From Ignavibacteriota bacterium (GTDB lineage Bacteria; Bacteroidota; Ignavibacteria; Kapaibacteriales; UBA2268): 39,589 nucleotides of DNA. The translations under genes and the position numbers were made by a program. Where the stretch lies: contig JAGXGG010000106.1 of the NCBI GenBank assembly GCA_024636855.1, forward strand, positions 1 through 39,589. Reading direction: 5' to 3'. Positions 21,074-28,867 of this stretch are shown piece by piece. The first letter of the stretch is position 1; each line of letters begins with the position of its first letter. The notes under the pieces are model-generated. The model did no database searches and was not told the origin of the DNA. It saw nothing but the letters and a program-made list of their open reading frames with translations.

Positions 21074-21631
21074 TCATTTAATTTTAGAGTTATTGTATTC
21101 GTCTAATTCCCATTTTAGAGGGTTTTCCATTATATACTTTCTAATCTCATAAAGAGATTTCTCATTTCTTATCACATGATCATAATAGTTTGATTGCCAT
21201 GCAAAGCTAGTGTTTAATTTTCTCGCTTTTGAAGTAACAGCAGACTTTAAACCTCTAACAATAGCAGATAGATTATTACTTGCTGATTGTAGAGACGTAT
21301 TGCATACGTCTCTAGATGGGTGTCTCTTAGTATCAACATTATTTGAATCGATTTCATTCAGTATTATAATACAATGAAAATGATTTGGCATAACCACAAA
21401 CACATCTAATATTATATTCAAATCTCTTCTTAATTCTGGTGTTTTATACCACTCCGTTTCAAGGATTACTCCAATTTTTGAAAGCTGCATAACCCCGTTA
21501 TTTATACTTCCGAAATAATTGATTTTGTCTTTTGTACAAATTGTCAATGAATAATACCCAGGATTTGAATAGTCCCAGTTTTTTAATCTATTCGATTGAG
21601 TTCTATATTTATTCTGAAATTTATCTTCCAT
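21074..21631 (-). CDS. rayT: REP-associated tyrosine transposase (RAYT, Y1/HUH family)
   Basis: This 185-residue Y1 transposase-like enzyme acts as a single-strand DNA nickase/ligase on REP hairpins. Visible family features are YYSLTICTKDKINYFG near residues 27-42, the metal-binding HUH motif in VMPNHFHCIIIL (about 80-91), and the C-terminal WQSNYYDHVIRNEKSLYEI block with the catalytic Tyr in NYYDHVI and the following YIMENPLKW. It is surrounded by REP palindromes: one 17 nt before the start, one and a half just after the stop, and one inside the gene. The internal palindrome (21289-21315) is in frame and encodes SRDVCNTSLQ in the variable loop after residue ~105. Mobility is presumably of REPs rather than of the gene itself. 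Confidence 0.92.
   Translation of the reverse strand: MEDKFQNKYRTQSNRLKNWDYSNPGYYSLTICTKDKINYFGSINNGVMQLSKIGVILETEWYKTPELRRDLNIILDVFVVMPNHFHCIIILNEIDSNNVDTKRHPSRDVCNTSLQSASNNLSAIVRGLKSAVTSKARKLNTSFAWQSNYYDHVIRNEKSLYEIRKYIMENPLKWELDEYNNSKIK
21289..21315. repeat. REP palindrome 5, inside the RAYT reading frame
   Basis: The arms TAGAGACGTAT and ATACGTCTCTA flank TGC within the transposase gene. The insertion keeps the frame and is translated as a ~10-residue peptide. Confidence 0.88.
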
Positions 21632-24896: not shown

Positions 24897-24923
24897 TTAG
24901 CACTCTTGTCATCAGAGTGCTAA
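24897..24923. promoter_or_regulatory. CIRCE operator (HrcA binding site)
   Basis: The perfect 9-bp arms TTAGCACTC (24897-24905) and GAGTGCTAA (24915-24923) with a 9-nt spacer match the CIRCE consensus exactly. It lies directly upstream of the groESL promoter, implying heat-shock control by an HrcA repressor encoded elsewhere. Confidence 0.95.
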
Positions 24924-24945
24924 CAAAAGTACGAAAATGGACGCA

Positions 24946-25016
24946 TTTTGTTGTAAAAAATTATTTTATAATGGTTTGGTGGGGGGACTATTAAATACAA
25001 TTATTTGTATATTTGT
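24946..25016 (+). repeat. Direct repeat A1 with a promoter, upstream of the Bro-N gene
   Basis: The first 25 nt (24946-24970) are identical to 25894-25918. A GGT-rich stretch (GGTGGGG) and a final block ending in TATATTTG (25008-25015) are also shared. TATATTTG is a perfect match to the Bacteroidota -7 box TAnnTTTG. A matching -33 TTG is not obvious in this copy. Confidence 0.75.
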
Positions 25017-25050
25017 GAAATCAAATGAAATAATATAATAAAGTAACGAT

Positions 25051-25887
25051 ATGAAAATTCAAACTTCAATTAAACTATTCGAGCAATCACAAGTAAGAAC
25101 ATCATGGAATGAAGACGAAGAGAAATGGTACTTTTCAGTTGTAGATGTTATACAAATACTTACTGACAGCGAAAGACCACGTAAATATTGGAGTGATCTT
25201 AAAGCTAAGTTAAATAAGGAAGGAAGCGAACTGTCCGAAAATATCGGACAGTTGAAAATGTCAGCTGAAGACGGCAAAATGAGACAAACCGATGTCGCGG
25301 ATACTGAGCAACTTTTCAGATTGATACAGTCTATCCCGTCTCCAAAAGCAGAACCATTCAAATTATGGATTGCCAAAGTGGCTCGGGAAAGAATAGATGA
25401 AATAGAAGACCCAGAAATTGGTTTCGAACGGCTAATGGAAACTTATCTGAAAAAAGGGTACAGTAAAGACTGGATAAACCAACGCCTAAAAAGCATAGAG
25501 GTCAGAAAAGAACTAACAGATGAGTGGGACAATAGAGGGGTTAAAAAAGGATTAGAATACGCGATTCTTACCAATGAAATTACAGAAGCTTGGAGCGGAT
25601 ATAATGTAAAGAATTATAAAAGACTGAAAGGCTTAAAAAAAGAGAATCTTAGAGATAACATGAGCAACTTGGAATTAGTGCTTAATATGTTAGCCGAAGC
25701 TACAACTACAGAAATTAGCAAAGAGAAAAATCCAAAAAATTTCAATGAAAATAAAAAAATAGCAAGACAAGGGGGCACAATAGCAGGTAACACACGTAAA
25801 GAAATTGAAGAGAAAACAGGAAAGAAAATAGTAACTGAATTGAAAGCAAAAGAAATCTTTGAACAAAAGAAAAGAATAGAAGAATAG
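25051..25887 (+). CDS. Bro-N domain protein (phage antirepressor / DinD-like)
   Basis: This 278-residue cytoplasmic protein has an N-terminal Bro-N domain, from IKLFEQSQVRTSWNEDEEKW through the typical WYFSVVDVIQILTDS and ending in DTEQLFRLIQSIPSPKAEPF (about 90-110), followed by a helical C-terminal region (FERLMETYLKKGYS, IEVRKELTDEWDNRG, AILTNEITEAWSG). Full-length relatives of this type are common in Bacteroidota and are annotated as antirepressor or DNA-damage-inducible. The end is very Lys/Glu-rich. The gene is bracketed by ~70-bp direct repeats (24946 and 25894), each with a promoter, and carries an internal 25-bp palindrome at 25229. A mobile or phage-derived origin is likely. The exact role is unknown. 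Confidence 0.8.
   Translation: MKIQTSIKLFEQSQVRTSWNEDEEKWYFSVVDVIQILTDSERPRKYWSDLKAKLNKEGSELSENIGQLKMSAEDGKMRQTDVADTEQLFRLIQSIPSPKAEPFKLWIAKVARERIDEIEDPEIGFERLMETYLKKGYSKDWINQRLKSIEVRKELTDEWDNRGVKKGLEYAILTNEITEAWSGYNVKNYKRLKGLKKENLRDNMSNLELVLNMLAEATTTEISKEKNPKNFNENKKIARQGGTIAGNTRKEIEEKTGKKIVTELKAKEIFEQKKRIEE
25229..25253. repeat. Intragenic 25-bp palindrome (Bro-N gene)
   Basis: The arms AACTGTCCGA (25229-25238) and TCGGACAGTT (25244-25253) are perfectly complementary around AAATA. It lies within codons for ELSENIGQL. The same-family palindrome occurs in the RhuM-Fic gene. Confidence 0.85.
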
Positions 25888-25893
25888 GTTCCG

Positions 25894-25962
25894 TTTTGTT
25901 GTAAAAAATTATTTTATAAAGGTTGGGTGGGGATTGTGTGATAGAATTATTTGTATATTTGT
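25894..25962 (+). repeat. Direct repeat A2 with a promoter, upstream of the T9SS gene at 25994
   Basis: This second copy of repeat A begins 6 nt after the Bro-N stop. It includes a TTG (25934-25936) 17 nt before TATATTTG (25954-25961), a well-formed Bacteroidota promoter about 32 nt from the next start codon. Confidence 0.75.
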
Positions 25963-25993
25963 GGGGTTGAGTTAAATTATAGTTGAGACTATT

Positions 25994-27391
25994 ATGAAAA
26001 GAATACTGATTATTATACTTGTCTTAGTTGCATACAGCCAAACTTATGGACAATGGGTGCAACTTGGTGAAAGTATAAAACAAACGAAAAGGGGCGGGTC
26101 CTTTGCCTATACAATGGCAATAAGTGGTGATGGCTTAACAGTTATTGTTGGTTCATATACTAGTTCCGAATTTGAAAAGTATGCAGGGAAAATTCAAGTG
26201 TTTCGCTTTCAGAATGAAAGATGGGAACAGATAGGGGATGATATTCATGGTATTTTAAATGACGAATTTGGATGGGCTGTTGACATCAGTTTTGATGGGA
26301 GTATTATTGCAATTAGTGCGAGGCAATCACAAGTTTATGAGGGTTATGTGAGAGTTTTAAAATACACTATGAATAATTGGCTACAAATGGGTGATGACAT
26401 AGTTGGTGAAAAACTTGGATGGTATTTCGGTTATGCGTTAACAATGAATAAGAATGGAAATGTTATTATTGTAAGTGCAATTCATGACTCGAATAATCTT
26501 CTTACAGCATTCGAGTTTCAAGATGGAGCTTGGGTTGAGAAAGGCAGCGGGTTTAATGGACTGAATGGACCTTCATTATCTATAAACGCTGATGGAAATA
26601 TTGTTGCTTTAAATGCTGGTGGAATTATTAGACTCGTTGAATATAAAAACAACGAATGGATACGAATGAATTCTGATATAGTTAATTATGGTGCTTCAAC
26701 AGTAGACTTAAGTGATGATGGATTTACTTTAGCTATTGGAATGACTAGCGACCAAAACTACGGTAAAGATGGTGGACGAACAAGGGTATTAAAATATATT
26801 GACAGCGTATGGGTGGAATTAGGCGAAACATTTTACAACCATTCAGGTAGAACAGCAAAAATTAATGGAGAAGGTAATATTATTGCTACGGGTGGAAGTG
26901 CAAATATTGATGATAAAGGGCAATCATATTTCAACCCAAAAGTTTATAGTTTGTTTAATGGACAGTGGAGAGATCTGGGGTTAAGCATTGATGAAGAAGA
27001 AAATAATAATTTTATTGGCTCTGTAATCAGTCTTAGTGATGATGGATTTACCATTGCTATAGGTGGTCTTACAAAAATATCTCAGTTTGGTTATACAGAA
27101 GATGTAAGAATATATACACATTCAACACGAACATTTGTTAAAGACCAAGAAGAACATCAAAATATTAAGTTGTATCCCAACCCAGCAAACGAAGAGTTAT
27201 CAATTGAAGTAGCTGGAAATAACCTAATGAATGAATTTACTATTATAGATATTAATGGTAAATCCGTTTACAATAGCACTTCTCCAAATTCAAGTTTAAC
27301 GATTGACTTAAAACAGTTTTCAAGTGGTGTTTACTATCTTATAATCAAGAATAAGGAAGGGACATCAAGAGAGAAGTTGATTATTCAGTAA
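25994..27391 (+). CDS. Secreted seven-bladed-propeller-like protein with T9SS type A sorting domain
   Basis: This 465-residue exported protein has a signal peptide ending near YSQTYG. About seven repeats follow, each with a core like AISGDGLTVIVGS, DISFDGSIIAIS, TMNKNGNVIIVS, SINADGNIVALN, DLSDDGFTLAIG, KINGEGNIIATG and SLSDDGFTIAIG, which fits a seven-bladed propeller of the FG-GAP-like kind. The last ~75 residues (LYPNPANEELSIEV to REKLIIQ) are a T9SS sorting domain. No enzyme motif is present, so a binding or adhesive surface role is inferred. It is expressed from the promoter in repeat A2. Confidence 0.82.
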   Translation: MKRILIIILVLVAYSQTYGQWVQLGESIKQTKRGGSFAYTMAISGDGLTVIVGSYTSSEFEKYAGKIQVFRFQNERWEQIGDDIHGILNDEFGWAVDISFDGSIIAISARQSQVYEGYVRVLKYTMNNWLQMGDDIVGEKLGWYFGYALTMNKNGNVIIVSAIHDSNNLLTAFEFQDGAWVEKGSGFNGLNGPSLSINADGNIVALNAGGIIRLVEYKNNEWIRMNSDIVNYGASTVDLSDDGFTLAIGMTSDQNYGKDGGRTRVLKYIDSVWVELGETFYNHSGRTAKINGEGNIIATGGSANIDDKGQSYFNPKVYSLFNGQWRDLGLSIDEEENNNFIGSVISLSDDGFTIAIGGLTKISQFGYTEDVRIYTHSTRTFVKDQEEHQNIKLYPNPANEELSIEVAGNNLMNEFTIIDINGKSVYNSTSPNSSLTIDLKQFSSGVYYLIIKNKEGTSREKLIIQ

Positions 27392-27403
27392 ACACAAAAA
27401 ACC

Positions 27404-27562
27404 ATGAAAACCCTAATAACAATTCTCATCATCCTAAACATAGTAGTCCTACTGGGGCAGCTGTGGCCAGAGGGAGCTCCGCCTTTCGCTGGTACGGTCA
27501 ACATAGTATTTTTGATACTTAGTTTGTTGTTCTTTATTTCGCTTTTGGTTAGGCATAAATGA
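27404..27562 (+). CDS. Small membrane protein, copy 1 (52 aa)
   Basis: This 52-residue protein begins MKTLITILIILNIVVLLGQ, followed by a WPEGAPPFAG turn and a second helix ILSLLFFISLLV, so two membrane segments with a short Pro-rich loop between. A second copy lies at 28548-28712. Counting the differences between the copies, eight are synonymous and one changes His to Arg, which shows a real, constrained coding gene. It starts 12 nt after the previous stop, and its TGA overlaps the RhuM-Fic start (ATGA). I do not recognise the family. Confidence 0.75.
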   Translation: MKTLITILIILNIVVLLGQLWPEGAPPFAGTVNIVFLILSLLFFISLLVRHK

Positions 27563-28551
27563 ATAATTCAGACTTAATTATATATCAGACCGAAGATGGT
27601 CTAATACAGATTCAAGCTCGATTAGAAAACGAGACGGTTTGGCTTTCTCAACAGGAATTAGCCCACTTATTTGCTGTAACAAAGCCAACTATTAGTGAAC
27701 ACTTTAAAAATATTTTTGAAAGTGAAGAATTAGATAAAGATACAACTGTTCGGAAATTCCGAACAGTTCAAAAGGAAGGCAGCAGAGATGTATCGAGAGA
27801 TATAGAGTACTATAATTTAGACGCTATTATTTCAGTTGGATATAGAGTAAACTCAACCAAAGCCACACAGTTTAGACAATGGGCTACACGCACTTTAAAA
27901 GAATATTTAGTAAAAGGTTATGCCGTTAATCACAAACGTTTGCAAGAAAGCCAACAGCAACTAACAGAATTCAAAAAGTTGGTAATATTACAGAACGATG
28001 TAATCAATAAGTATCAATTAGAAAATGATGAAACGAAAGGACTAATCCAAGTTATCGCAAATTATGCAACAGCTCTAGATTTATTAGATGATTACGACCA
28101 TCAGCGTATGGAGTTGCCAGATTATGGGACAAAAGAAGTCGTAAAAATCACTTATGAAGAAGCTAAAAGAGCAATCGAACAATTAGGAAAGCAAACTAAA
28201 TTTGAGGGCTTGTTTGGTAATGAAAAAGATGATTCGTTCCGAGGTTCATTGGATAATATATACCAAACATTTGATGGTAATGATTTGTACAAAACAACAC
28301 AAGAAAAGGCCGCTCACTTATTATATTTTGTTGTTAAAAACCATTCGTTTACAGACGGAAACAAACGAATAGCAGCTTTTATATTTGTATGGTTCTTGGA
28401 AAGAAATAATCTGTTATACTCAAATGATGGTTTTAAAATAGTCTCTGACAGCACTCTTGTGGCACTAACTTTAATGATTGCACAAAGTAACCCCAAAGAC
28501 AAAGATATGATGATAAAAGTAGTTGTAAACTTATTATTGAGTAAGCCATGA
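27559..28551 (+). CDS. RhuM-Fic fusion protein (Doc-like Fic motif)
   Basis: In this 330-residue cytoplasmic protein, residues 1-130 are a RhuM/virulence-type domain with a helix-turn-helix-like segment (WLSQQELAHLFAVTKPTIS, about 28-46) and the family block YYNLDAIISVGYRVNSTKATQFRQWA. Residues ~195-330 are a Fic/Doc domain with core H262-S-F-T-D-G-N-K-R270. A Lys before the Arg (GNKR rather than GNGRxxR) is like Doc toxins, which phosphorylate EF-Tu, rather than AMPylating Fic enzymes; the actual reaction is not known. It overlaps the small membrane genes on both sides by ATGA, so all three form one coupled operon. An in-frame 25-bp palindrome sits at 27744-27768. Confidence 0.85.
   Translation: MNNSDLIIYQTEDGLIQIQARLENETVWLSQQELAHLFAVTKPTISEHFKNIFESEELDKDTTVRKFRTVQKEGSRDVSRDIEYYNLDAIISVGYRVNSTKATQFRQWATRTLKEYLVKGYAVNHKRLQESQQQLTEFKKLVILQNDVINKYQLENDETKGLIQVIANYATALDLLDDYDHQRMELPDYGTKEVVKITYEEAKRAIEQLGKQTKFEGLFGNEKDDSFRGSLDNIYQTFDGNDLYKTTQEKAAHLLYFVVKNHSFTDGNKRIAAFIFVWFLERNNLLYSNDGFKIVSDSTLVALTLMIAQSNPKDKDMMIKVVVNLLLSKP
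27744..27768. repeat. Intragenic 25-bp palindrome (RhuM-Fic gene)
   Basis: The arms AACTGTTCGGAA (27744-27755) and TTCCGAACAGTT (27757-27768) are perfect 12-bp complements around one A. It encodes TVRKFRTV. It differs from the Bro-N palindrome at two pairs of bases that change together, plus one centre base. Confidence 0.9.
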
Positions 28552-28712
28552 AAACCCTAATAACAATCCTCATCATCCTAAACATAGTAGTCCTGCTGGG
28601 GCAGCTGTGGCCAGAGGGTGCACCGCCATTCGCAGGTACGGTGAACATAGTATTTTTGATACTTAGTTTGCTGTTCTTTATTTCGCTTTTGGTTAGGCGT
28701 AAATCGAAGTAG
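28548..28712 (+). CDS. Small membrane protein, copy 2 (54 aa)
   Basis: This duplicate of the gene at 27404-27562 starts at the ATG at 28548, overlapping the RhuM-Fic stop (ATGA). The first 51 residues are identical to copy 1; position 51 is Arg instead of His, and the end is RRKSK instead of RHK. Two predicted membrane helices. It is followed directly by a decayed gene fragment in another frame. Confidence 0.72.
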   Translation: MKTLITILIILNIVVLLGQLWPEGAPPFAGTVNIVFLILSLLFFISLLVRRKSK

Positions 28713-28867
28713 AGTGTAGATGGTTTATAAATGATGAATACTACAAAACATGTAAAACAGGAGAGGAAGCCTACTTCGTACCCAAACGAGAAGGAAAAGT
28801 AAAAATAAGCTGTACCGATAACTTAGGGAATACAAGTATTATGGGGATTATGGTTGAGTATTACTAG
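28703..28867 (+). pseudogene. C-terminal remnant resembling the penicillin-binding protein 1C tail
   Basis: An open stretch of 54 codons without a start reads WFINDEYYKT, then GEEAYFVPKREGKVKISC, DNLGNTSIMGI and a stop at 28865-28867. The spacing of W-F-I-N, the G-K-x-x-I and the D-x-x-G-x-x-S elements is reminiscent of the beta-rich domain at the end of PBP1C (pbpC) proteins. No other part of pbpC is nearby, so this is probably a stranded fragment. Recognition is by eye only. Confidence 0.45.

Follow-up and report, generated by a model that had tools for sequence, protein, structure and literature searches.

We analysed a stretch of 39,589 nucleotides (nt) from an Ignavibacteriota bacterium (contig JAGXGG010000106.1; hereafter the window), in which a Bro-N gene and a RhuM-Fic gene each carry a 25-base-pair (bp) palindrome, or dyad, inside the coding sequence. 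Our results indicate that these palindromes are probably double-stranded DNA operators read by the protein of the same gene, with negative autoregulation as their likeliest role. The view that the operators are bound by these proteins is strongly supported, at the level of sequence, by covariation between the predicted recognition helix and the dyad; we further infer dimeric binding, repression and a roadblock. The features concerned are the following.

25051..25887, + strand: Bro-N gene, 278 amino acids; Pfam PF02498 (E 5.1e-12), PADLOC PDC-S13 (E 1.6e-135)
25177..25221, + strand: predicted recognition helix of Bro-N, residues 43-57, from the model and the associations; D49 goes with dyad positions d5d4, K53 with d3
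25229..25253, no strand: 25-bp dyad in the Bro-N gene, centred 190 nt past the first base of the ATG; proposed operator of the Bro-N protein
27559..28551, + strand: RhuM-Fic gene, 330 amino acids; PF13310 (E 6.2e-29), PF02661 (E 9.6e-11), PADLOC PDC-S23 (E 8.1e-137)
27682..27720, + strand: predicted recognition helix of RhuM-Fic, residues 42-54, from the model and the associations; K42 goes with d8d7, E47 with d4d3
27744..27768, no strand: 25-bp dyad in the RhuM-Fic gene, centred 197 nt past the first base of the ATG; proposed operator of the RhuM-Fic protein

The Bro-N domain scored 46.7 bits against a curated Pfam cut-off of 25.6, and the Fic domain of the RhuM-Fic protein 42.8 against 24. 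The Virulence_RhuM match reached 101.5 bits (cut-off 33.7) and covers only profile positions 2-80 of 252. By their PADLOC profile matches both proteins are phage-defence candidates. The initial annotation had placed the palindromes at 25229-25253 (AACTGTCCGAAAATATCGGACAGTT) and 27744-27768 (AACTGTTCGGAAATTCCGAACAGTT), and both positions proved exact. Its observations that two positions distinguish the ten-base arms, with a compensating change in the opposite arm for each, and that the encoded peptides (ELSENIGQL and TVRKFRTV) and codon phases differ were likewise borne out. With up to three mismatches allowed, the palindrome pattern matched the window twice (mean 0.00 in 100 shuffles) and the 3.1-Mb genome at two places only, both being the window dyads. 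The genome-wide enrichment that had been proposed as a check is thus absent, which fits a site belonging to one gene. The sequence that the two window dyads share is not the conserved feature, as homologues keep a dyad of many sequences. The likeness of the two window dyads to each other may be a matter of chance: the window type of dyad is frequent among RhuM genes, and 3 of 57 Bro-N frames, the window's own included, combine the arm CTGTCCGA with the outer AA seen in the window.

A scan with the motif, loosened at third positions, returned at least 119 loci in genome contigs and at least 120 in viral contigs. Among those listed, the motif lay at the homologous site in 76 of 119 genome loci (RhuM 51, Bro-N 25) and in 8 of 120 viral loci (RhuM 2, Bro-N 6). 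By their record titles the 119 genome loci come from many phyla, archaea included. Homologues were then collected by protein similarity with no palindrome required. At E <= 1e-15, RhuM homologues were present in 78 and Bro-N homologues in 46 of 296 genomes of the window's phylum, for which T9SS sorting domains point to Bacteroidota; 30 loci per family were taken, with 80 further stretches from among the matches listed and 22 viral loci. In RhuM, 107 of 114 frames spanning the site reached 10 or more of 12 complementary pairs, compared with 5 of 1,881 windows elsewhere in the same genes; in Bro-N, 52 of 57 frames did (3 of 810 windows elsewhere). All sites scoring at least 9 (111 RhuM, 57 Bro-N) had an odd centre. 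One offset was common to 106 of the 111 RhuM sites and another to 48 of the 57 Bro-N sites, with 8 of the 57 sitting about 12 nt further on. The sequence of the dyad is hypervariable and its symmetry alone is kept: arm variants include AACTGTTCGG, AGTTGTCAAG, AACTTGTGCA, AACTACCGAG and AGTTATTTCC in RhuM and AACTGTCCGA, AAACCGTGAC, AGTTGTCGAC and ACTGGGGTAC in Bro-N. The peptide at the site is not conserved and changes along with the dyad. The general pattern is the opposite of the outcome named at the outset as refuting, a peptide kept while the palindrome is lost: in homologues the dyad persists and the peptide alters.

RhuM genes with at least 10 pairs were also found in an Alphaproteobacterium, several Gammaproteobacteria, an Actinomycete and Selenomonas, and a Streptococcus suis RhuM gene has 9 pairs. 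In two genes the dyad lies outside the coding sequence. The RhuM gene L054 has no internal dyad and carries a perfect one centred 32 nt upstream of the start codon, and the Bro-N gene L424, on a Chloroflexota plasmid, has an imperfect one centred 33 nt before the ATG (9 of 10 arm pairs, found by eye in the sequence and missed by the scan). The remaining low scorers of 278 frames (L394, L400, L328 and the second frame of L304) look decayed or partial. In E. coli, 4,443 records had a match, and those opened from the short-match class were remnants; the viral scan with the RhuM protein returned no relative. In one locus (L283) three consecutive Bro-N frames each have their own, different perfect dyad. 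In three loci the sequence upstream of the gene is the same and contains a perfect dyad of the AACTGTTCGG type; it is followed by a DinD gene in two (L019, L093) and by RhuM in the third (L054), as if genes had been swapped behind one promoter. The idea that this upstream dyad serves DinD was dropped, since the DinD genes carry their own internal dyad. The scanned palindrome type also appeared in codons for [AS]TVREYRTV, near the N-terminal part of open reading frames (ORFs) that resemble DDE transposases by eye only (L101 6636-8000, L089 and L070). Small membrane or coiled-coil ORFs at viral loci such as L189 602-1072 contain AACTGTTCGGAAAAATCGAACAGTT (ELFGKIEQL), probably as mere pickup by the pattern.

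In the structural models of both window proteins (mean pLDDT 88.6 for Bro-N and 76 for RhuM-Fic, with N-terminal blocks at 84 to 97 over residues 11 to 130) a recognition helix is followed by a two-stranded wing, and the dyad codons encode the first wing strand and, in Bro-N, also the loop preceding it. We compared helix residues, at offsets counted from the dyad peptide, with the dyad bases (d1 innermost). When RhuM proteins 33-55% identical to each other were paired, pairs whose 6-nt cores differ by at most one base had the same residue at offset -16 (E47 in the window protein) in 81% of cases, and pairs whose cores differ by three or more in 3%; the residue at Bro-N offset -11 (D49) gave 85% for like and 3% for unlike cores, in a set that includes loci picked by motif. 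The associations can be written as rules. The bases at d4d3 are GG where RhuM -16 is E, AG where it is L, M or Q, CA where it is R, CA or CC where it is K, and GA where it is Y. Those at d8d7 are GT where RhuM -21 is K, TG where it is R, and AT or GT where it is V. In Bro-N, d5d4 is CG where -11 is D, and d3 is A where -7 is K (6 of 7 representatives) and C where it is R (5/5). Both window proteins conform to these rules, and so does L054, whose helix residues are K and E and whose relocated dyad has GT and GG. A second RhuM gene of the window's genome (L387, G000:C24) has a dyad of the AGTTGTAAAG type and the helix residues K and Q, in line with the rules; its dyad has one exact copy in that genome and two further places at three mismatches.

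As a control for relatedness we used disjoint nearest pairs from the set fetched by protein similarity, in which one locus (L428) had first been met via the motif. For RhuM -21 and d8d7, residue and bases were both unchanged in 37 pairs and both changed in 32, with 5 discordant pairs (p 4e-15); for RhuM -16 and d4d3 the counts were 33 and 28, with 13 of 74 discordant (p 5.6e-9). In Bro-N the corresponding counts were 14, 12 and 1 for -11 with d5d4 (p 7.5e-7), 22, 5 and 0 for -7 with d3 (p 1.2e-5), and 15, 6 and 6 for -16 with d8d7 (p 0.025). Of 182 RhuM columns, the top five tied to core change fall within the helix-turn-helix, and the sixth (+19) belongs to the region of the wing. In Bro-N, six of the top eight columns are in the helix-turn-helix and two (+22, +101) outside it. 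The rules, fixed on the first set, were then applied to RhuM genes of the phylum of L054 (Clostridia by its record title; 299 genomes, 48 with a match, of which the best 30 loci were used) and to RhuM genes from four records, with one gene left out for a residue not in the rule table. Predictions were correct in 32/34 and 28/31 cases, against shuffle means of 12.3 and 14.4 and maxima of 21 and 22; some rules permit two or three dinucleotides, and the shuffles had the same latitude. Without L425 and L428, which repeat genes of the first set, the counts were 30/32 and 26/29. The helix-to-base code thus carries over to another phylum.

Two further groups of genes also carry an internal dyad. In ORF6N loci, a first scan found such a dyad in 23 of 30, compared with 8 of 60 background windows, and 26 of 30 have one with 10 or more of 12 pairs close to the centre of the domain; one locus (L500) has an apparently misread frame. 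The helix was readable by a fixed pattern in 28 of 30 genes, where Q went with CA at d5d4 in 14/14 and E with CG in 8/8, an association reached by 0 of 20,000 shuffles. Eight dinD-type genes have a 26-bp, even-centred internal dyad, a number that is not a rate, as the list required a peptide motif. The dinD gene of E. coli K-12 DH1 (L504) shares an internal dyad at the corresponding place, with 10 of 12 pairs centred at +188.5 from the ATG. It differs in the even-centred, 26-bp form of the dyad and in that a LexA-box-like site also precedes the gene; this upstream site is among the next-best dyads of the scanned region, with 8 pairs. A DinD relative from Clostridia contains the Bro-N Pfam domain.

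We propose that the N-terminal winged helix-turn-helix of Bro-N or RhuM would act as a dimer that puts one recognition helix on each half of the dyad. The bound protein would block transcription of its own gene, whichever promoter the gene has landed behind, and the operator, being in the wing codons about 190 bp after the start codon, would travel with the reading frame alone; a few genes have the dyad just upstream of the ribosome site instead. Only an internal operator would stay with a frame that is moved without its promoter, which would be the reason for the intragenic place. We regard binding of the protein to the dyad in its own gene as very likely, and autorepression as the main effect as somewhat more likely than not.

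Several observations weigh against this interpretation. A position about 190 bp inside the gene is unusual for a repressor site, and there is no sign of an additional operator near the promoter: among the loci of 259 genes, 11 further copies of own sites were found, compared with 19 for foreign control sites. Discordant pairs occur (13/74 at RhuM -16), most of which may involve interchangeable residues. The strongest single association in the scan of representatives, between offset +10 and d10 and d11 (z 20), adjoins the dyad and is outside the helix; it might reflect a wing contact or mark a subfamily, and is otherwise unexplained. Paralogues within a genome shared the 6-nt core in 2 of 46 RhuM pairs, with about 1.9 expected. 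They do not avoid each other's sites, so that diversification for orthogonality is unsupported. Finally, the fold bears on the interpretation in both directions. The likeness of the Bro-N model to DdrC of Deinococcus radiodurans, a DNA-binding protein that forms dimers, extends over nearly its full length (PDB 8u0g, 7udi and 7qvb; 217 of 219 residues, Z 14.4, root-mean-square deviation (rmsd) 9.9; Foldseek E 4.4e-7, TM 0.41/0.51) and counts in favour; against it, DdrC is described, in an excerpt of PMC5436757, as binding DNA without sequence or shape specificity. Sequence specificity would then be a property of the Bro-N side. The RhuM model matched the DdrC fold weakly, at the N terminus (Z 6.6, rmsd 3.8, 93 aligned residues, tied with Ski and Dachshund); structure searches with this model returned mostly Fic and coiled-coil matches, and absences there carry no meaning.

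The best of the alternatives, which we consider unlikely, is that the protein does bind its own dyad and uses it for something other than repression: as a parking place, as a sensor of phage or damage, or as a site for gene movement. It would accommodate the position in the gene instead of at the promoter, the phage-defence candidate status of the proteins and their links to DinD, through a domain, and to DdrC, through the fold. The upstream dyads of L054 and L424, 32-33 nt from the start codon, speak for repression, as this is a usual place for a repressor site. Gene movement is suggested by direct repeats that flank both window genes.

24946..25035, + strand: left copy of direct-repeat blocks around Bro-N (39 nt, 95%; 53 nt, 74%)
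25894..25981, + strand: right copy of these blocks
27399..27560, + strand: left copy of a 162-bp direct repeat (94%) around RhuM-Fic
28543..28704, + strand: right copy of the 162-bp repeat

No more than about 10 bp separates the edges of the 162-bp repeat from the RhuM-Fic start and stop codons, and the repeats hold two near-identical copies of a small ORF (MKTLITILIILNIVVLLGQLW...). With this ORF duplicated, RhuM-Fic looks like an insertion with target duplication. Across loci, flanking repeats were present at 26 of 192 such genes and at 7 of 295 control ORFs, which were called mechanically (p 3e-6); a looser count (37/119) contained unrelated similarities and was superseded. The repeats, which also count in favour of a use in gene movement, suggest that single reading frames have been inserted with duplication of their target. 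Gene context was not special: a close ORF on the same strand lay upstream of 66 of 175 genes (93 of 209 other ORFs) and downstream of 75 of 175 (95 of 209). Single cases nevertheless stand out: one Bro-N gene, on an Arcobacter cloacae plasmid (L414 2992-3888), is flanked by cas4 and cas1b, and one RhuM gene is located between a methylase and a specificity gene. In the window itself a gene on the - strand (21074-21631) resembles REP-associated tyrosine transposases below the curated cut-off (60.8 vs 80 bits), and no connection to the palindromes was seen.

Besides an operator, the initial annotation had offered an RNA hairpin and a mobile palindrome; the operator gained from the match between recognition helix and dyad, and the other two found little support. 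A hairpin in the messenger RNA (mRNA), acting on translation, RNA processing or termination through its structure alone, would explain why pairing is kept while the sequence varies and why the five central bases are free in many genes, and both window sites are predicted to fold (-15.6 and -15.1 kcal/mol, z -4.9 and -5.6). An mRNA hairpin should, however, favour G-U pairs. Non-Watson-Crick arm pairs in 178 distinct sites were G-U in 16 cases, A-C in 22 and other in 43 (9, 16 and 38 in a smaller set), so that G-U was no commoner than other mismatches, which fits a double-stranded DNA site. A hairpin also has no reason to match a recognition helix, and Rfam gave no match at E <= 1 in window positions 24900-28800. 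We therefore judge it very improbable. Symmetry at the innermost position was considered as a sign of duplex DNA and not used, as d1 was paired in 61 of 79 RhuM sites, about the expectation from base composition.

Still less credible is a constraint on the protein alone, in which the DNA would be palindromic only by accident of encoding a conserved wing strand. In the TVRKFRTV type, pairing is possible between bases at first and second codon positions, and with the peptide fixed and codons drawn by the usage of each gene, sites scoring at least 9 reached a mean of 6.55 of 10 pairs in RhuM and 6.01 in Bro-N. All ten arm pairs, on the other hand, arose in only 0.41% (RhuM) and 0.38% (Bro-N) of the synonymous draws and were observed in 80% of 215 RhuM and 65% of 92 Bro-N sites, rates that are slightly high because 9 of 316 frames (score below 9, even centre or unreadable codons) were left out and 307 used. 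Conservation therefore acts on the DNA, beyond the needs of the peptide. Moreover, the peptide is not conserved and tracks the dyad, the dyad is displaced by some 12 nt in 8 of the 57 Bro-N frames, and it can sit outside the coding sequence; the synonymous control together with the relocated dyad of L054 rules out peptide constraint as the cause. Equally negligible is a mobile or self-correcting palindrome kept perfect without selection by template switching, a process known in general to correct quasi-palindromes, which would account for compensated changes being the rule, as observed, and may help new sites to arise but leaves unexplained the single copies, the nearly fixed place, the near-universal presence across phyla and the match to the helix.

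If the operator reading is correct, the DNA site of each RhuM, Bro-N, ORF6N or DinD-type member would be readable from its own gene, and many matched pairs of helix and site would form a natural recognition code for common, poorly understood families that include antirepressor-like proteins, phage-defence candidates and DinD. RhuM, named as a virulence or toxin protein, would be recast as a self-reading DNA-binding protein. Each gene would travel with its own lock and key, in which the site and the amino acids that read it change together, suggesting how a bare reading frame stays regulated behind a foreign promoter. It is possible, and we propose it tentatively, that throughout this superfamily the gene is its own address: the operator would be spelled out in the wing codons, self-recognition would be independent of the promoter, new specificities would come about as helix and site change jointly, and the bound state may serve to sense phage or damaged DNA instead of simply repressing. 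A literature search for an operator inside the gene of its own DNA-binding protein found none in open-access papers (no preprints), among the matches listed.

Among the closest known systems are the autogenous operators of helix-turn-helix repressors, for instance in the LacI family, in which, as excerpted from PMC2978694, residues of the protein's own helix likewise covary with its own operator and give a residue-to-base code. The excerpt has LacI-family sites sought in intergenic regions, whereas those described here are intragenic, at a nearly constant place in the wing codons, and occur in several families. RhuM itself was proposed, in a passage of PMC3710099, as a toxin domain in neighbourhoods of restriction-modification genes; the family there is the same, adjoins these genes and is often fused to Doc. 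In contrast to that passage, the N-terminal part here is predicted to resemble a sequence-specific DNA-binding domain. Restriction-modification systems are reported to be inserted with long target duplication, and direct repeats likewise flank many of the genes studied here; the difference is that the inserted units would be single reading frames, each with a proposed internal operator.

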